From an uncultured Selenomonadales bacterium (GTDB lineage: Bacteria > Bacillota > Negativicutes > Acidaminococcales > Acidaminococcaceae): a DNA stretch of 64,000 nt. The position numbers were made by a program, and so were the translations under genes. Below the pieces are notes generated by a model. That model was not told the DNA's origin and made no database searches. It was given only the letters and a program-made list of their open reading frames with translations. The stretch covers positions 1 through 64,000 of the forward strand of contig ONAN01000004.1 in assembly GCA_900315805.1 (NCBI GenBank), given 5' to 3'. Shown one piece after another: positions 121 to 15,375 of the stretch (position 1 is its first letter; each line of letters opens with the position of its first letter).

Positions 121-149
121 TTTACAAATCCCGAAAACGTGCTTATAAT
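121..149 (+). promoter_or_regulatory. glnN promoter
   Basis: TTTACA at 121-126 and TATAAT at 144-149 with a 17-base spacer fit the sigma-A consensus well. Transcription would begin near 156. Three TGTAACA heptamers surround it (37, 66, 153). Confidence 0.65.
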
Positions 150-159
150 GAGTGTAACA

Positions 160-205
160 ACGAAGACGTTGAGGACTTTATGTCCGGGCGCCTTCGTTTT
201 TTTTT
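160..205 (+). terminator. Leader terminator/attenuator of glnN
   Basis: Bases 160-176 pair with 182-197 (one A-C mismatch, two G-U pairs and a small internal loop; loop TTTAT), followed directly by nine T residues (197-205). It lies only a few bases after the predicted transcription start, so most transcripts would stop before glnN unless the hairpin is prevented from forming. It could instead belong to an upstream gene outside the window. Confidence 0.6.
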
Positions 206-277
206 ATTTGTTTTTGATTTTCCGTACCGAGAGAAGGATACATCGACGGATGGTCAAGAGATAAGGAGGAGAGCACA

Positions 278-2365
278 ATGACGAATGTTCCGAAATTATT
301 TGGCAGCCTGGCATTTAACGAACGGGTCATGAAGGACCGCCTGCCGGCGAAAACCTATAAGGAGTTCCAGCGGGCCGTGGCGGCGGGCGAGCCGCTGAGC
401 CGCGAACTGGCCGACATGATGGCTTACGCCATGAAGGATTGGGCGCTGGAACACGGCTGCACCCACTACACCCACTGGTTCCAGCCTATGACGGGCATCA
501 CGGCCGAAAAACATGAAAGCTTCATCCAGCCCGCGGCGGATGGGCGCGTCATCATGGAATTTTCCGGCAAGGACCTGATCCAGGGCGAACCCGATGCGTC
601 GAGCTTCCCGTCCGGCGGCCTGCGCGCCACCTTCGAAGCCCGCGGCTACACCGCCTGGGACCCCACGTCGTACGCCTTCATCAAGGACAACTGCCTGTAT
701 ATCCCGACGGCGTTCTGCTCCTACACGGGCGATGTGCTGGACAAGAAGACGCCGCTCCTGCGTTCCATCGCCGCGTTGGATAAATCGGCCAAGCGCGTGC
801 TGGCCCTGTTCGGCATCCATACGGAACACATCGTCACGAACGTCGGGCCGGAACAGGAGTATTTCCTGGTCGACAAGAAGCTCTGGGAAAAACGCCGCGA
901 CCTGGTTTACTGCGGCCGTACCCTGTTCGGCGCCAAGGTGCCGAAAGGACAGGAAATGGAAGACCATTACTTTGGCGTCATCAAGCCGCGCGTGAAGGCC
1001 TTCATGGAAGAGCTGGACGAAGAACTGTGGAAGCTGGGCGTCCTTGCCAAGACCGAACATAACGAAGTGGCGCCGGCGCAGCACGAGCTGGCCCCCATCT
1101 TCTCGCCGGTCAACATCGCGACGGACCACAACCAGCTCATGATGGAATACATGAAACGCATCGCCCTGAAGCACGGCATGGTCTGCCTGCTCCATGAAAA
1201 GCCGTTCGAAGGCATCAATGGCAGCGGCAAGCACAACAACTGGTCCGTTTCCACGGCCGAAGGCAAGAACCTGTTCGACCCCGGCGACGACGTGTACCAC
1301 AACGACCAGTTCCTGCTGTTCCTGGCGGCCGTCCTGAAGGGCGTCGATGAATACCAGGATGTCATGCGCGCCACCGTGGCCAGCGCGGGCAACGATCACC
1401 GCCTGGGCGCCAACGAAGCGCCGCCGGCCATCGTCTCCGTCTTCCTGGGCACGGAACTGACGGGCGTCCTCGAAGCCATTGCCGCCGGCAAACCCTACAA
1501 GGCCCATCATGAAACCATGATGAAGCTGTCCGGCGAAACCGTGCCGGCCCTGGAAAAGGACAACACGGACCGCAACCGTACCTCGCCGTTCGCCTTCACG
1601 GGCAACAAGTTCGAATTCCGTATGCTCGGCTCCCAGGCTTCCATCGCCTGCACGAACGCCTACCTGAACACCATTTTCGCCGAAGAGCTCGACTGGGTCG
1701 CCGACGAACTGAAAGGCGTCAAACCGGCCGGCCTGGACAAGGCCGTCAAGGCCCTCGTCAAGAAGATCTACCTGGCCCACAAGCGCATCGTCTTCAACGG
1801 CAATGGCTACACGGACGAATGGGTGGCCGAAGCCGAAAAGCGCGGCCTGCTGAACCTCAAGTCCACGCCGGAAGCCCTGGCCGCCATGAGCGCCAAAAAG
1901 AACGTCGACCTGGTCGTGAAACACGGCATCTTCACGAAGTCCGAAGTCGAATCCCGCGTCGAAATCCAGTACGAACTGTACAACAAGACGCTGAACATCG
2001 AAGCACTCACCATGCTGGACATGCTGCATAAGGACCTGCTGCCGGCGGCGGAAAAGTACCTGAAGGACCTGACCACGACGGCCATGAACGAAAAGGCTCT
2101 GGGCATCAAGCCCGACACCACGTTCCTGGACAAGCTGAACAAAGCGACTATCCAGATGTTTGCCGACGGCACGAAGCTGGAAAAGGTGCTGCAGGCTGCC
2201 GAAAAGATCACGGACCAGAAGAAGGCCGGCACGGCCTACCACGACAAGGTGCTGGCCGCCATGGATACGCTGCGTGCCTCCGGCGATGCTGTCGAAGCCA
2301 TGCTGGGCGGCGATTACCTGCCGTATCCGACGTACGGCGACCTGCTGTACGGAATCAATGACTGA
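278..2365 (+). CDS. glnN: Type III glutamine synthetase
   Basis: ATP-dependent amidation of glutamate to glutamine, the main ammonium-assimilation step, in the cytoplasm. At 695 residues it matches the large GSIII (GlnN) class rather than the 440-470 residue GSI. Visible motifs are GPEQEYFLVD, EHNEVAPAQHELAPIF, GINGSGKHNNWS (ammonium/glutamate site), RLGANEAPPAI and DRNRTSPFAFTGNKFEFR (substrate arginines). The start has AAGGAGGA nine bases upstream. It is monocistronic, with a leader terminator before it and a terminator after it. An ANTAR two-component system lies 4 kb downstream; ANTAR proteins control nitrogen genes by antitermination in other Firmicutes, so it is a candidate regulator (inference). 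Confidence 0.96.
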   Translation: MTNVPKLFGSLAFNERVMKDRLPAKTYKEFQRAVAAGEPLSRELADMMAYAMKDWALEHGCTHYTHWFQPMTGITAEKHESFIQPAADGRVIMEFSGKDLIQGEPDASSFPSGGLRATFEARGYTAWDPTSYAFIKDNCLYIPTAFCSYTGDVLDKKTPLLRSIAALDKSAKRVLALFGIHTEHIVTNVGPEQEYFLVDKKLWEKRRDLVYCGRTLFGAKVPKGQEMEDHYFGVIKPRVKAFMEELDEELWKLGVLAKTEHNEVAPAQHELAPIFSPVNIATDHNQLMMEYMKRIALKHGMVCLLHEKPFEGINGSGKHNNWSVSTAEGKNLFDPGDDVYHNDQFLLFLAAVLKGVDEYQDVMRATVASAGNDHRLGANEAPPAIVSVFLGTELTGVLEAIAAGKPYKAHHETMMKLSGETVPALEKDNTDRNRTSPFAFTGNKFEFRMLGSQASIACTNAYLNTIFAEELDWVADELKGVKPAGLDKAVKALVKKIYLAHKRIVFNGNGYTDEWVAEAEKRGLLNLKSTPEALAAMSAKKNVDLVVKHGIFTKSEVESRVEIQYELYNKTLNIEALTMLDMLHKDLLPAAEKYLKDLTTTAMNEKALGIKPDTTFLDKLNKATIQMFADGTKLEKVLQAAEKITDQKKAGTAYHDKVLAAMDTLRASGDAVEAMLGGDYLPYPTYGDLLYGIND

Positions 2366-6416: not shown

Positions 6417-7889
6417 ATGACCATCAAAGGGCTGACGGCGGAACAAGGGCGGATCCTGCGCGCCATGGAGGGCCTGCTGCCCCTGGCGGCGGACATCGCC
6501 CAGGCCAAAATCTCCCTCGTCCTGCCCGTGACGGAAGAGCGCGAAGCCCGCGTCCTGGCCGGCATCCAAGGCAGCACCGGCGCGGACGGCGAAGAGCTTT
6601 TCCTGGAAATCTGCGCCCAGGCCGAACCGCTGACCCGCGTGGACGATGTAGCGGACGAGCCGGCCGCCAATGCCATGGAGGACGGCAGCCGGGCCCTCGT
6701 ACCGGTCCGCCTGGCCGACGAACCGCTGACGGCGCAGACCCTGCGCGACAACCAAGTCACCGAAGGCATGCGGGAATTCATCCTGGGCCAGTACGCCCGC
6801 ATGAAGGTGTTCCCCGTGTGCGACGCCGCCGGCACCTGCTTTGCCGCGGCCGCCTTTGAAGACCGCGAAGCCGACGTCGTCTTCTGGGACGCCACCATGG
6901 ACTTTCTGCGCACCAGCACCGGCGTGGACAGCCGCAACGCCTGCTACCGCCGCATGGCCAGTATCGACGGCCTCGTGCTCATCAACGCGCGGAACAAGGA
7001 AATCCTGGCCGCCAACAACGCGGCACGCCACATTTACCGCGTGCTAGGCGTGGGCATGCTCGTCGGGCGGCGCACGAACAGCATGGACATCCACTGGAAC
7101 GGCGTCACGGAAGTGTGCAGCAGCGGCGAGGCCTACGAAGAGGAAATCCGCCAGAAAGGCCTGACCCTGGACATCCGCTTCCTGCCCCTCAACGACAGTT
7201 CGGGCCGGCCGCGGCAGCTCATCGCCATCATCGAAGATGTAACGCAGCTGAAGCTGAAGGACGAGGAACTGCGCGTCCAGTCGGCCATGATCAAGGAAAT
7301 CCACCACCGCGTGAAGAACAACCTGCAGACCATCGCCAGCCTGCTGCGCCTGGAGCAGCGCCGCGCCCGGAGCCAGGAAACGAAGACGGTCCTGAAGGAT
7401 TCCATCAACCGCATCAGCAGCATCGCCCTCGTGCACGAATACCTGTCCACGCAGGGCACGGAAGAAGTCGACATGGCCGCCCTGGGCAGGGACGTGTTCC
7501 GCACGGTCCTGAGCAGCATGGGCAACCCGGAACTGCACCTGCAGACCGCCTTTACGGCGGAATCCCTGCTGCTGCCGTCCCAGAAGGCCGCGAGCCTGGC
7601 CCTGGTCCTGAACGAACTGGTCCAGAACTCCCTCGAGCACGGCTTCGAAGGATGCACCCAGGGCACGCTGGCCGTCGACCTGTTCGAAACGCCGGGCAAC
7701 GTCATCCTGCGCGTGACCGACGACGGGACGGGCCTGCCGAAAGACTTTCAGCCCGGCCGTTCCAAGAGCCTGGGCCTGAAAATCGTCCAGACCGTCGTGA
7801 CGTCGGATTTAAAAGGCGTATTTTACCTGCACAACCGTACGGACGGCGTACGCGGCGCCATGGCGGAAGTCATTCTGCCGCGCGTCTGA
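6417..7889 (+). CDS. Sensor histidine kinase, HisKA_2 family, partner of an ANTAR regulator
   Basis: A 490-residue cytoplasmic kinase without membrane helices. Residues 1-140 resemble the N-terminal sensor domain found in EutW-type kinases. A PAS-like segment follows (ASIDGLVLINARNKEILAAN onward, about 180-285), then a HisKA_2 dimerisation domain with the phospho-acceptor region IHHRVKNNLQTIASLLRLEQ (His 296/297), then an ATPase domain with N-box ELVQNSLEHGF and DDGTGLP. It lies 27 bases before the ANTAR response regulator, the usual pairing. The signal is unknown; EutW-like kinases sense small molecules in the cytoplasm. Confidence 0.88.
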   Translation: MTIKGLTAEQGRILRAMEGLLPLAADIAQAKISLVLPVTEEREARVLAGIQGSTGADGEELFLEICAQAEPLTRVDDVADEPAANAMEDGSRALVPVRLADEPLTAQTLRDNQVTEGMREFILGQYARMKVFPVCDAAGTCFAAAAFEDREADVVFWDATMDFLRTSTGVDSRNACYRRMASIDGLVLINARNKEILAANNAARHIYRVLGVGMLVGRRTNSMDIHWNGVTEVCSSGEAYEEEIRQKGLTLDIRFLPLNDSSGRPRQLIAIIEDVTQLKLKDEELRVQSAMIKEIHHRVKNNLQTIASLLRLEQRRARSQETKTVLKDSINRISSIALVHEYLSTQGTEEVDMAALGRDVFRTVLSSMGNPELHLQTAFTAESLLLPSQKAASLALVLNELVQNSLEHGFEGCTQGTLAVDLFETPGNVILRVTDDGTGLPKDFQPGRSKSLGLKIVQTVVTSDLKGVFYLHNRTDGVRGAMAEVILPRV

Positions 7890-7916: not shown

Positions 7917-8534
7917 GTGAATAAGTTGAGAATACTGGTCGTGGACGACGAAGCCATCCTGCGCCTCGACCTGAGCGAAATGCTGGCCGAACGGGGCCAC
8001 GATGTCGTCGGCGAGGCTGATAACGGGGCCGATGCCGTCACCATGGCGCGGGACCTGAAACCGGACCTCGTCATCATGGACGTCAAAATGCCCGGCATGA
8101 GCGGCCTCGAAGCGTCCAAGATCATCGCCGACGAGCAGATCGCGCCCGTCCTGCTGCTGACCGCCTACAGCCAGCGCGATGTCGTGGAACAGGCCACGGA
8201 CTCCGGCGTCATGGCCTATCTGGTCAAGCCCATCCGCGAAGAGGAGCTGACCCCGGCCATCGAAATCGCCATCAACCGCTGGAACTCCTACAAAAACCTG
8301 CAGGGCGAGCTGGAAAAGGCCAAAGAGGACTTGGAAACGCGGAAACTCCTGGACCGCGCCAAAGGCATCCTCATGGACCAGCACGGCTTTTCCGAACACG
8401 ACGCCTTCCAGGCCATGCAGCATTTGAGCATGGACCGGCGCCTCTCCCTGAAAGCCGTCGCGCAGGCCGTCATCGCCGCCGCCGAAATCAACGGCCGGCA
8501 GGGCAAAACCTCCCGCCGCCGCGTGCGCAACTAA
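7917..8534 (+). CDS. ANTAR-domain response regulator (RNA-binding antiterminator)
   Basis: 205 residues. The receiver domain (about 1-120) shows VVDDE, the phospho-acceptor Asp55 in IMDVKMPG, the switch Thr in LLTAYS and the Lys in YLVKP. A short coiled linker leads to a C-terminal ANTAR domain (about 145-200, LDRAKGILMDQHGFSEHDAF and KAVAQAVI). When phosphorylated, such proteins bind paired hexaloop hairpins in nascent RNA and prevent terminator formation. It starts with GTG, five bases after AGGAGGATA. Relatives act on ethanolamine or nitrogen genes. Here glnN, with a leader terminator, is the obvious candidate target, though no perfect ANTAR hairpin pair was found. Confidence 0.93.
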   Translation: MNKLRILVVDDEAILRLDLSEMLAERGHDVVGEADNGADAVTMARDLKPDLVIMDVKMPGMSGLEASKIIADEQIAPVLLLTAYSQRDVVEQATDSGVMAYLVKPIREEELTPAIEIAINRWNSYKNLQGELEKAKEDLETRKLLDRAKGILMDQHGFSEHDAFQAMQHLSMDRRLSLKAVAQAVIAAAEINGRQGKTSRRRVRN

Positions 8535-8617: not shown

Positions 8618-8682
8618 CGAGGTGTCTCCCAACTACCCTTCGTTCTGTAGGATGATGATTTCAGTCTGATGGAATGCAGCGG

Positions 8683-9210
8683 TCACTTGCCGGTGGCCAG
8701 GGCCGTCACTTCGGCACGGGTCAGGGGCGTGTCCGTCAGATAAGCATAGGAATAGGTGCCGTCGCGCCAGATGATGGAACGGTACGCGTCCTTTTCGCCC
8801 CGGGCCGTGATCCGGCGTCCGTCGGCGCGCCAGGACTTGCGCACGTCGTAGCGGGTGTAGTCGCCGCTGATGTCCTGCTTTCCCCGGGCCATGCGGTACA
8901 TGGAACCGTCGGCAAAATCAATCTGCGCCGTATCGCCCGACAGCACATTCAGGGAGCGGATGCTCCGGTCCGCCAGGGCGGCGGGCAGCTGCACCGTAAA
9001 GCCCAGTTTGGCGCTCATTTCTTCCAGGGAACTGCAGGGCGTGAACGGGCTCGGCAGGCCAACCTGCTCCACGACGGCAGCCGGCGCGGGCTCCGCCGCG
9101 TGGGCCGAATGGATGATGGCTTCGCCGGCCGCGCAGGCGGCGGAAAAAGCAACACTCGAAGAGACCAGCACAGCGGCCAGCTTTTTCTTGAACGGGGAAA
9201 TCGTAAACAC
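8683..9210 (-). CDS. Exported DUF4367-like protein
   Basis: 175 residues if started at the GTG (9210) that follows AGAAGGTA; longer upstream frames lack a ribosome site. An N-terminal signal peptide is clear (FKKKLAAVLVSSSVAFSAA). The mature part carries a pattern typical of DUF4367 proteins in anaerobic Firmicutes: MSAKLGFTVQLPAAL, then ADGSMYRMARGKQDISGDYT and a final GTYSYAYLTDTPLTRAE. Function is unknown; related domains occur at the C-terminus of some anti-sigma proteins. It stands alone between two terminators. Confidence 0.7.
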   Translation of the reverse strand: MFTISPFKKKLAAVLVSSSVAFSAACAAGEAIIHSAHAAEPAPAAVVEQVGLPSPFTPCSSLEEMSAKLGFTVQLPAALADRSIRSLNVLSGDTAQIDFADGSMYRMARGKQDISGDYTRYDVRKSWRADGRRITARGEKDAYRSIIWRDGTYSYAYLTDTPLTRAEVTALATGK

Positions 9211-9373
9211 AACGTACCTTCTTTCTATCGGATACAGGGGCATTGCTGCACAGCGGCACCTGCCGCCGTACCGGCCCCGGATTCTTTCATGACTGTGCTC
9301 ATTGTACCATGGCCTCCCCGAAAAAGTTTGACAGTACTGTAACAAGTTTATTACGAAAGTTTGAACTGTTAAA

Positions 9374-13325: not shown

Positions 13326-13988
13326 TCAGGAAATCTTCGTCTTGTTGAGTTTCTTCGACACGGCGTTGCCGAGGGCCTGGACGCCCTGCACCAGGATGAT
13401 GAGGACGATGACCGTGGCAATCATGACATCGGTCTGGAAACGCTGGTAGCCGTAGCGGATGGCCAAGTCGCCCAGGCCGCCGCCGCCCAGGGCACCGGCC
13501 ATGGCGGATGCGCCGATGAGGGAAATGAGGGCCAGCGTGATGCCCAGGGTCACGGAATGGAGCGATTCCGGCAGCATGACTTTCCAGATGATCTGCCAGG
13601 GGCTGGCGCCCATGGACTGGGCCATTTCGATGACGCCGGGGTCGATTTCCAGCATGGACGATTCGATGATGCGCGAAATGAAGGGCGCGCAGGTGATGGT
13701 CAGGGGAACGATGGCGGCCGTCGTGCCGATGGACGAGCCTACGACGAGGCGCGTGAAGGGGATGATGGCGACCATGAGGATGATGAAGGGGACGGAACGG
13801 ATGGCGTTGACGATGGCGCCGAGCACGTTATGGACCGCCGCGTTGGGCAGGATATGGTCCTTGCGGGTGATTGTGAGGATGATGCCCAGGGGGATGCCGA
13901 TGAGGCAGGCGATGAGGATGGCCACGACGACCATGTAGATCGTTTCGCCCAGGGAGGTTAACAGTAATTCCATCAGATTATTTGACAT
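13326..13988 (-). CDS. metI: Methionine ABC transporter permease
   Basis: 220 residues with five to six membrane helices and the ABC coupling motif (EMAQSMGASPWQIIWKVMLP). Very close to the MetI pattern: SVPFIILMVAIIPFTRLVVG and SLIGASAMAGALGGGGLGD. The ATG follows GGAGGTGC and overlaps the metN stop by 11 bases. It imports D/L-methionine with MetN. No metQ substrate-binding gene follows; a terminator-bearing region with tetR does. Confidence 0.95.
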   Translation of the reverse strand: MSNNLMELLLTSLGETIYMVVVAILIACLIGIPLGIILTITRKDHILPNAAVHNVLGAIVNAIRSVPFIILMVAIIPFTRLVVGSSIGTTAAIVPLTITCAPFISRIIESSMLEIDPGVIEMAQSMGASPWQIIWKVMLPESLHSVTLGITLALISLIGASAMAGALGGGGLGDLAIRYGYQRFQTDVMIATVIVLIILVQGVQALGNAVSKKLNKTKIS

Positions 13989-15057
13989 AGCCCAGCACCT
14001 CCAGCTTTACTTTGACTTCGTTCAGATAGGCGAGGGAATCCTGAATGGCCTTTTCCCCGCCGATGATTTCCACCAGCAGCGTCCCGTAGGGCGTGTCCTT
14101 CAGGTAGTCGACCTTGCCGGAAATGATGTTGACGTCGACACCGAACTTCTTGACGAGGGCCGACACGACGGGCTGGTCCGCCTCGGCGGTATCGCTCTTC
14201 TTGTCAGGATGCTGCGCCGCGTCGGGGTCGCTCAGAAATTCCAGGTTGGCCAGCAGGCACGAGCCGGGGAAGTAGTCCGGCTTCATGTCCGCCGTGTCGA
14301 TGATGGGCGGAATCTTGATGTCGTTGACCGTGCGGACGAACTCCTTCGTCGTCTCTTCCTGCGGTTCCGTGAAGACCTTGTACATGGAACCCTGCTCGAT
14401 GATGTGCCCGTTCTCGATGACGGCCACGCGGTCGCAGATTTCCTTGACGACCTCCATCTGGTGGGTAATCATGACGATGGTCAGGTTCAGCTTCTTATTG
14501 ATGTCCTTCAGCAGGGCCAGGATGGATTTCGTGGTCTGCGGGTCCAGGGCGCTCGTCGCTTCGTCGGACAGGAGCACCTTCGGGTTCGAGGCCAGGGCGC
14601 GGGCGATGCCGACGCGCTGTTTCTGGCCGCCGGACAGCTGGCTCGGATAGTAGTCCCGCCGTTCGTCGAGCTGGACCAGCTTCAGCAGCTCGTCGACGCG
14701 GCTCTTGATCTGGTCCTTGGGCAGGCCCTGGATTTCCAGGGGGAAGGCCACGTTCTGGGCGACCGTGCGGGTGGCCAGCAGGTTGAAGTGCTGGAAGATC
14801 ATGCCGATGTTCTGGCGTGCCTTGCGCAGTTCCGCGCCGTGCAGGGCCGTCATTTCCTTGCCGTCGACGAAGACCTGCCCGCCCGTGGGCACCTCGAGCA
14901 TGTTGATGCAGCGGATGAGCGTCGATTTGCCGGCGCCGGATAAGCCGATGATGCCGAAGATTTCGCCGTCCCGGATTTCGAGGTTCGTCTTCTTCAGGGC
15001 TGCGATGTCGCCGGCTTTGCTGTAGTATGTTTTTTCTACGTTGACCAGTTTGATCAT
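13978..15057 (-). CDS. metN: Methionine ABC transporter ATP-binding protein
   Basis: 359 residues. ABC domain with Walker A GLSGAGKST, Q-loop, signature LSGGQKQRV and Walker B VLLSDEATSALD, then the C-terminal regulatory NIL domain (about 270-359, PVVSALVKKFGVDVNIISG onward) that binds methionine for trans-inhibition. I start at MIKLVNVEKTYY. The nearest good ribosome site (AAGGAGGG) is about 45 bases upstream, with a hairpin carrying a GCAA loop between it and the ATG. The gene lies under a SAM-I riboswitch. Confidence 0.93.
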   Translation of the reverse strand: MIKLVNVEKTYYSKAGDIAALKKTNLEIRDGEIFGIIGLSGAGKSTLIRCINMLEVPTGGQVFVDGKEMTALHGAELRKARQNIGMIFQHFNLLATRTVAQNVAFPLEIQGLPKDQIKSRVDELLKLVQLDERRDYYPSQLSGGQKQRVGIARALASNPKVLLSDEATSALDPQTTKSILALLKDINKKLNLTIVMITHQMEVVKEICDRVAVIENGHIIEQGSMYKVFTEPQEETTKEFVRTVNDIKIPPIIDTADMKPDYFPGSCLLANLEFLSDPDAAQHPDKKSDTAEADQPVVSALVKKFGVDVNIISGKVDYLKDTPYGTLLVEIIGGEKAIQDSLAYLNEVKVKLEVLGYVK

Positions 15058-15152
15058 ATGTGGTTCGCGTCCGTCTGTCCTTGCGGACGGGACGCGTCCC
15101 TCCTTTCTGCGCAATGGCGGTAATGGGCCGGAGGGCCTGTTCCGACATAACT

Positions 15153-15303
15153 AAAACAGGCCCTTCACCGATTGATGAAGGGCCTTACTTTTCTGGTAGA
15201 AACCGTTTCATCTTCCGGAGAATTCCCGCTGGATTTGGCACCGTTCCTTCCGGATGGTTGCCGTGGCGTCATAGGGCCAGTCCCTCTGCCAACTCTTGAT
15301 GAA
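15153..15303 (-). promoter_or_regulatory. SAM-I (S-box) riboswitch of metNI
   Basis: On the minus strand the aptamer runs from P1 (TTCATC at 15303-15298) through the conserved core AGAGGGACTGGCCC, TATGA, CGGCAACC and GGTGCCAAATCC, back to GATGAA (15212-15207). The downstream terminator AGGCCCTTCA/TGAAGGGCCT (15185-15158) ends in TTTT. S-box RNAs terminate transcription when S-adenosylmethionine is abundant, so metNI should be off when methionine is plentiful. Confidence 0.93.
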
Positions 15304-15375
15304 GTGAAGAAGTTTTAAGGAATTTTGTAATAATAATACTCGCAATGCGTATACTTGTCAACTAAAAATTGATTG

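Follow-up and report, generated by a model that had tools for sequence, protein, structure and literature searches.

The glnN locus and its neighbourhood

The window, i.e. the whole analysed stretch of 64,000 nucleotides from an uncultured Selenomonadales bacterium of the family Acidaminococcaceae, starts at the first base of its contig, and the assembly (genome size 2.0 Mb) contains no further DNA upstream of it. Its first genes are arranged in the order glnN, nagA-like amidohydrolase, feoB, histidine kinase and ANTAR response regulator (Table 1). As originally predicted, glnN is preceded by a promoter which is directly followed by a strong hairpin and nine T. The promoter scores 11 of 12 matches, which on its own is weak since 0.7 matches of at least 9/12 are expected per 3 kb. 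All 19 scanned glnN leaders of the Acidaminococcaceae, however, possess a promoter with 10-11 of 12 matches and a 17-nt spacer, and the distance between the end of the -10 box and the hairpin is 8-13 nt throughout. Transcription is predicted to start at about position 156.

The terminator fold reaches -18.3 kcal/mol (z -3.6), and one out of 200 shuffled sequences folded equally well. A simple terminator scan did not detect it in the glnN leader, presumably due to the internal loops of the hairpin. The loop of its apical hairpin is not a hexaloop and varies among relatives.

Table 1. Predicted features of the glnN leader and the regulatory genes in the window, and hexaloop elements preceding candidate non-coding RNAs in related genomes
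Feature	Position	Strand	Description
Sigma-70-type promoter	121-149	+	TTTACA 121-126, 17-nt spacer, TATAAT 144-149; sequence and relatives' leaders
Alternative hairpin (putative antiterminator)	158-171	+	stem CAAC 158-161 / GTTG 168-171, hexaloop GAAGAC 162-167
Intrinsic terminator hairpin	159-198	+	basal stem 159-165 with 192-198
Apical hairpin GGAC-TTTAT-GTCC	173-185	+	fits both folds
U-tract	197-205	+	nine T, read from sequence
Ribosome-binding site of glnN	263-269	+	AAGGAGG, sequence
glnN, type III glutamine synthetase	278-2365	+	Pfam GSIII_N, Gln-synt_C, Gln-synt_C-ter
Sensor histidine kinase	6417-7889	+	HisKA_2, HATPase; presumed partner kinase
Response regulator with ANTAR output domain	7917-8534	+	PF00072, PF03861; presumed antiterminator protein
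Element and candidate non-coding RNA	L109 1990-2240	-	
Element and candidate non-coding RNA	L098 1494-1745	+	
Element and candidate non-coding RNA	L086 1300-1551	-	
Element and candidate non-coding RNA	L220 1335-1585	-	
Element and candidate non-coding RNA	L223 504-750	+	
Element and candidate non-coding RNA	L221 555-790	+	
Element and candidate non-coding RNA	L222 1340-1576	-	

Elsewhere in the window a SAM riboswitch (S box) was detected at 15205-15305 on the minus strand (79.8 bits), upstream of a gene encoding an ABC transporter ATPase with a NIL domain (13978-15114) that is probably part of a methionine transporter.

The ANTAR regulator and its presumed partner kinase

The presence of an ANTAR regulator in the window, which had been proposed from the sequence, was confirmed by profile matches above the cut-off to both the receiver domain (PF00072, 96.2 bits) and the ANTAR domain (PF03861, 74.6 bits). 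Matches in the PDB include Rv1626 (1s8n) and EutV (6wsh/6ww6). Most of the residues by which EutV contacts RNA are kept: R142, K143, K149, E160, M172 and R175 are identical, while K147R, Y164F, R168Q, N173D and R177S are changed, mostly so in Rv1626 as well. The protein is the sole ANTAR protein in its genome. Across the class, 38 out of 41 genomes encode at least one such protein; in genome G020, which carries the leader element described below, no ANTAR gene was found. Directly after the regulator gene follows an ORF of 222 aa (8674-9342, plus strand) without a match in Pfam or NCBIfam.

The neighbouring kinase had been called EutW-like. It possesses the HisKA_2 and HATPase domains of the EutW/PdtaS-type kinases, but seems closer to the soluble PdtaS type (GAF-PAS-HisKA_2) than to EutW specifically. 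Its N-terminal part matches PAS_4 and GAF_PdtaS weakly (GAF_PdtaS: E 0.006, 16.9 bits vs a cut-off of 23.7).

An alternative hexaloop hairpin in the glnN leader

The terminator loop TTTAT had been noted to lack the hexaloop of ANTAR target sites. This is correct for the terminator loop itself, which we rejected as an ANTAR site, but a hexaloop is present in the leader: it is part of the alternative hairpin 158-171, which arises by refolding of the 5' arm of the terminator, so that both structures are mutually exclusive. In a simulation of the growing transcript this hairpin coexists with the apical hairpin up to about base 193; from base 195 onwards the fold switches to the terminator. In the full-length leader, imposing the hairpin carries a penalty of about 9 kcal/mol and abolishes the basal stem of the terminator. 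The modelled geometry is the usual layout of an antiterminator. Sites of the form CAAC-N3-G-N2-GTTG elsewhere in the genome of the window were in no case accompanied by such a terminator.

Position 4 of the hexaloop is G (165), as expected for an ANTAR target, whereas position 1 is G (162) and not the expected A. In the simulated transcript of the window G1 is predicted to pair with C6 inside the hairpin, which would leave a tetraloop, and the site of the window's clade may therefore be weaker. Carriers of G1 are the window, its two nearest relatives (G004, G009) and G047, the leader of which is nearly identical to leader L140. Although G1 recurs in other leaders it is not above background outside the family; it was thus rejected as a general alternative to A1 and represents a caveat for the window rather than a second loop rule.

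Conservation of the element within the Acidaminococcaceae

Leaders of glnN orthologues were gathered by gene position, and the resulting family set of 41 leaders comprises sequences upstream of glnN, glmS and dapL as well as two without a coding gene. All 41 leaders have G at position 4 of the hexaloop, and 37 have A at position 1, the window and three others having G, in a set of which five leaders came from a search pattern requiring A1/G4 and one (L059) was chosen by eye, while the rest were collected without a loop condition. The remaining positions vary more, with A prevailing at position 2. A search of 61 genomes with a pattern that leaves the loop free recovered the same sites and a few strays; the reversed control pattern gave two matches.

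The RNAalifold consensus of 37 aligned leaders is the hexaloop hairpin, obtained unaided and with 97.8% of the cells paired, and three of the five pairs of its stem show compensatory changes. When the leaders of the relatives are folded as terminators, most of the 3' arm GTTG lies in bulges or stays single-stranded; hence the terminator pairing alone cannot explain the conservation of GTTG. According to a covariance model the element occurs in nearly every glnN-bearing genome of the family and once in the genome of the window, namely in the glnN leader.

In sister species the operon has the order promoter, element, dapL, element, glmS and glnN, in which the second element lacks a promoter of its own. 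This dapL-glmS-glnN operon with two hexaloop terminators is found at L061 220-3700 and at the equivalent loci L062-L068. Further sites were identified at amt in G042, in a nifV region and at a porin gene in G037, and, in several genera, in the interval separating glnN from amt. Gene names were assigned by reading the translations; only amt, glnN and the GlnA-like genes were identified by family or protein searches.

The same loop rule in other taxa

Eighty glnN loci, one from the Acidaminococcaceae and the remainder mostly from Clostridia with some from Spirochaetes, contained 49 hexaloop hairpins overlapping a terminator, 39 of which have A1/G4. The stems of these A1/G4 hairpins include CAGC/GCTG, AAGC/GCTT, CGGC/GTCG and GAGAC/GTCTC. 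Upstream of amt in Negativicutes, A1/G4 was found in 32 of 53 such hexaloops, and 27 of the 30 amt loci L278-L307 possess the A1 or G1 form together with G4. Several amt loci (L279, L280, L290, L291, L292, L294) carry two attenuators in series. When 1.3 Mb of other sequence was scanned in the same way, a background of 36/400 (9%) was obtained; the Fisher p-values are 4e-26 (glnN) and 1e-16 (amt) and overstate the significance since the species are not independent. Among the Clostridial genomes, an ANTAR gene is present in 23 of 24 with the element vs 17 of 24 without it (p 0.048); this co-occurrence is only weakly significant because nearly all of these genomes encode an ANTAR protein.

Single versus dual hexaloops

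The glnN leader does not carry the dual-hexaloop motif of the eut, nas and ami systems; it is a single-hexaloop site without a second hexaloop within a short linker. Between the hairpin and the U-tract a second A1/G4 hexaloop with at least three pairs was detected in one of 40 family leaders (1.9 expected), and upstream in none of 39 Clostridial glnN elements (1.1 expected) and in one of 31 amt elements (0.9 expected), in a search that is without a positive control since none of the dual hexaloops found in the eut/pdu regions of five Clostridia was combined with a convincing terminator. In the family leaders the position of the promoter moreover leaves no space for an upstream hexaloop. To our knowledge, ANTAR studies since 2012 have treated the target as a pair of hexaloops, neither of which is dispensable. 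An overlooked second hexaloop would make the leader an ordinary dual site, and the published models of ANTAR targets (PMC3369931, PMC8164766) as well as the membership of the regulator in the same protein family speak for it; considering the chance-level counts and the lack of upstream room, we regard this as highly improbable.

EutV antitermination was shown experimentally to require both hexaloops, and changes of A1 to U lowered the EutV induction (PMC3369931). In the EutV-RNA crystal structure published in 2022, one hexaloop is bound per dimer, G4 is contacted and stacks on Tyr164, and A1 has no specific contact; its authors called for bioinformatic and experimental work on the extent to which single-hexaloop motifs are used (PMC8934654). 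A description of single-hexaloop leaders was not found in a search of the open-access literature.

The system resembles EutV/EutW of the Enterococcus faecalis eut operons in its ANTAR response regulator and histidine kinase, its terminator-overlapping hexaloop and the conserved G4. However, the eut leaders have two hexaloops, the recruiting P1 and the terminator-overlapping P2, whereas the glnN leader has only the latter, located at the start of the RNA. NasR/nasF of Klebsiella and AmiR/amiE of Pseudomonas likewise combine an A1/G4 hexaloop with a leader terminator on nitrogen genes, but involve dual hexaloops and regulators with other input domains (PMC3369936). The putative glnN switch would act like the eut, nas and ami switches, yet lacks the two hexaloops by which they are defined. 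Closest by sequence among the solved regulators is PdtaR of the Mycobacterium tuberculosis PdtaS/PdtaR pair (Rv3220c/Rv1626; 1s8n, E 6e-59), which shares a Phe at the position of EutV Tyr164 with the window regulator; the window kinase matches GAF_PdtaS weakly, below the cut-off. The actinobacterial ANTAR targets were described as dual stem-loops at different genes (PMC8164766). Single short hairpins are also bound by the light-gated ANTAR protein NmPAL, but these are mostly artificial SELEX aptamers, and its natural RNA target is given as unknown in PMC10966536. In Clostridium saccharobutylicum the ANTAR protein NitR induces the GS/GOGAT genes, including those for glutamine synthetase, under nitrogen limitation, as cited in PMC6316151; that system concerns different genes and a different taxon, and the likeness considered here is that of the regulator.

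Proposed regulation of glnN and alternative explanations

Taking the comparative evidence together, the glnN leader probably attenuates transcription, and the neighbouring ANTAR two-component regulator would relieve this attenuation through one hexaloop. The link between the nearby ANTAR system and relief of the terminator, originally put forward as tentative, is well supported by the conserved hexaloop, its covariation and the loop rule. With regard to signal, phosphorylation, protein binding and direction of regulation we infer the following steps. RNA polymerase would start at about position 156, and the hairpin 158-171 would fold first, followed by the apical hairpin. Unless the former is held, the 3' arm 192-198 would capture its 5' arm and loop, resulting in the terminator and in glnN being switched off. 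Presumably at nitrogen shortage, the kinase would phosphorylate the response regulator, the ANTAR dimer would grip the hexaloop via G4, and the basal stem could not close, allowing readthrough into glnN.

A constitutive attenuator or an RNA-stabilising 5' hairpin, which would merely lower glnN expression without a regulating protein, would account for a strong terminator directly after the promoter. It leaves unexplained, however, why G4 never varies, why the unpaired GTTG arm is conserved, why the alternative stem shows compensatory changes and why the loop rule recurs upstream of amt, glmS and glnN in other orders, and appears very unlikely. The palindrome CAAC-N6-GTTG might instead be a DNA operator binding a repressor at the start site, the RNA hairpin being incidental; in favour of this, the repeat and the predicted start site overlap upstream of both glnN and dapL. 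This reading was rejected as barely probable because the operon-internal copies before glmS have no promoter, which argues for an RNA element, and because the variation among taxa is wide in the stems but not at loop positions 1 and 4; furthermore, an overlapping terminator is coupled to every copy.

A promoter-proximal conditional terminator on a biosynthetic gene would also be compatible with a ligand-binding riboswitch, a T-box or a leader-peptide attenuator. Rfam 15 revealed no match of the leader at the gathering score and, at relaxed thresholds, a single sub-threshold match to 23S-methyl (E 1.1). The approximately 50 nt ahead of the U-tract cannot hold an aptamer or a leader peptide of typical length, making this the most improbable of the alternatives considered.

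A putative nitrogen regulon

Returning to the single-hexaloop attenuator, the kinase and regulator encoded nearby probably make the control of glnN responsive to nitrogen. The occurrence of the element in front of the nitrogen genes glnN, amt, glmS and dapL and in a nifV region is best read as pointing to control by the ANTAR protein. It seems reasonably likely that a widespread natural class of ANTAR antiterminators needs only one hexaloop inside the 5' arm of the terminator and governs a nitrogen-assimilation regulon, including a non-coding RNA, in Negativicutes and Clostridia. If so, the model of two hexaloops contacted successively would not be general. The roughly one hundred natural single-hexaloop candidates are RNAs of about 50 nt with strong built-in terminators in hosts mostly encoding one ANTAR protein, and the question is therefore directly testable. 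The leaders suggest a route for the control of glutamine synthetase and ammonium uptake in Acidaminococcaceae and in gut and rumen Clostridia.

In seven relatives from four genera the element is located 5' of a predicted transcript of about 150 nt without an ORF (Table 1), a candidate for an ANTAR-controlled nitrogen sRNA. It contains the conserved core GGAAGCGGCCAAAUGAGGGGA, mostly within an outer stem GCGUGAC/GUCACGC, and a terminator of its own. An Rfam search with this RNA gave no match above the cut-off, and a search for its core allowing three mismatches was too noisy for use.

Directly 3' of glnN, in the region 2390-2480 of the window, lies the 13-mer GGCCAATGAGGGG (2453-2465), flanked by the inverted-repeat arms GTGCACAGC and GCTGTGCAC. 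The same 13-mer occurs in the L098 candidate sRNA; in relatives, similar AATGAGGGG stretches were detected near glnN or glmS. The GGCCAATGAGGGG stretch may be an embedded copy of the candidate sRNA or be due to chance.

An amt copy in G021 (G021:C46:23018-24193) contains two in-frame TGA codons and one in G053 (G053:C2:20732-21916) contains a single one; these are possibly pseudogenes or sequence errors. Upstream of GlnA-like genes, whose products of about 640 residues do not reach the TIGR00653 cut-off in any genome, L310 and L313 carry the hexaloop terminators GAGTC[AAAGAA]GACTC and GAGTC[AACGAA]GACTC, which resemble the leaders preceding glnN in G033 and G037.
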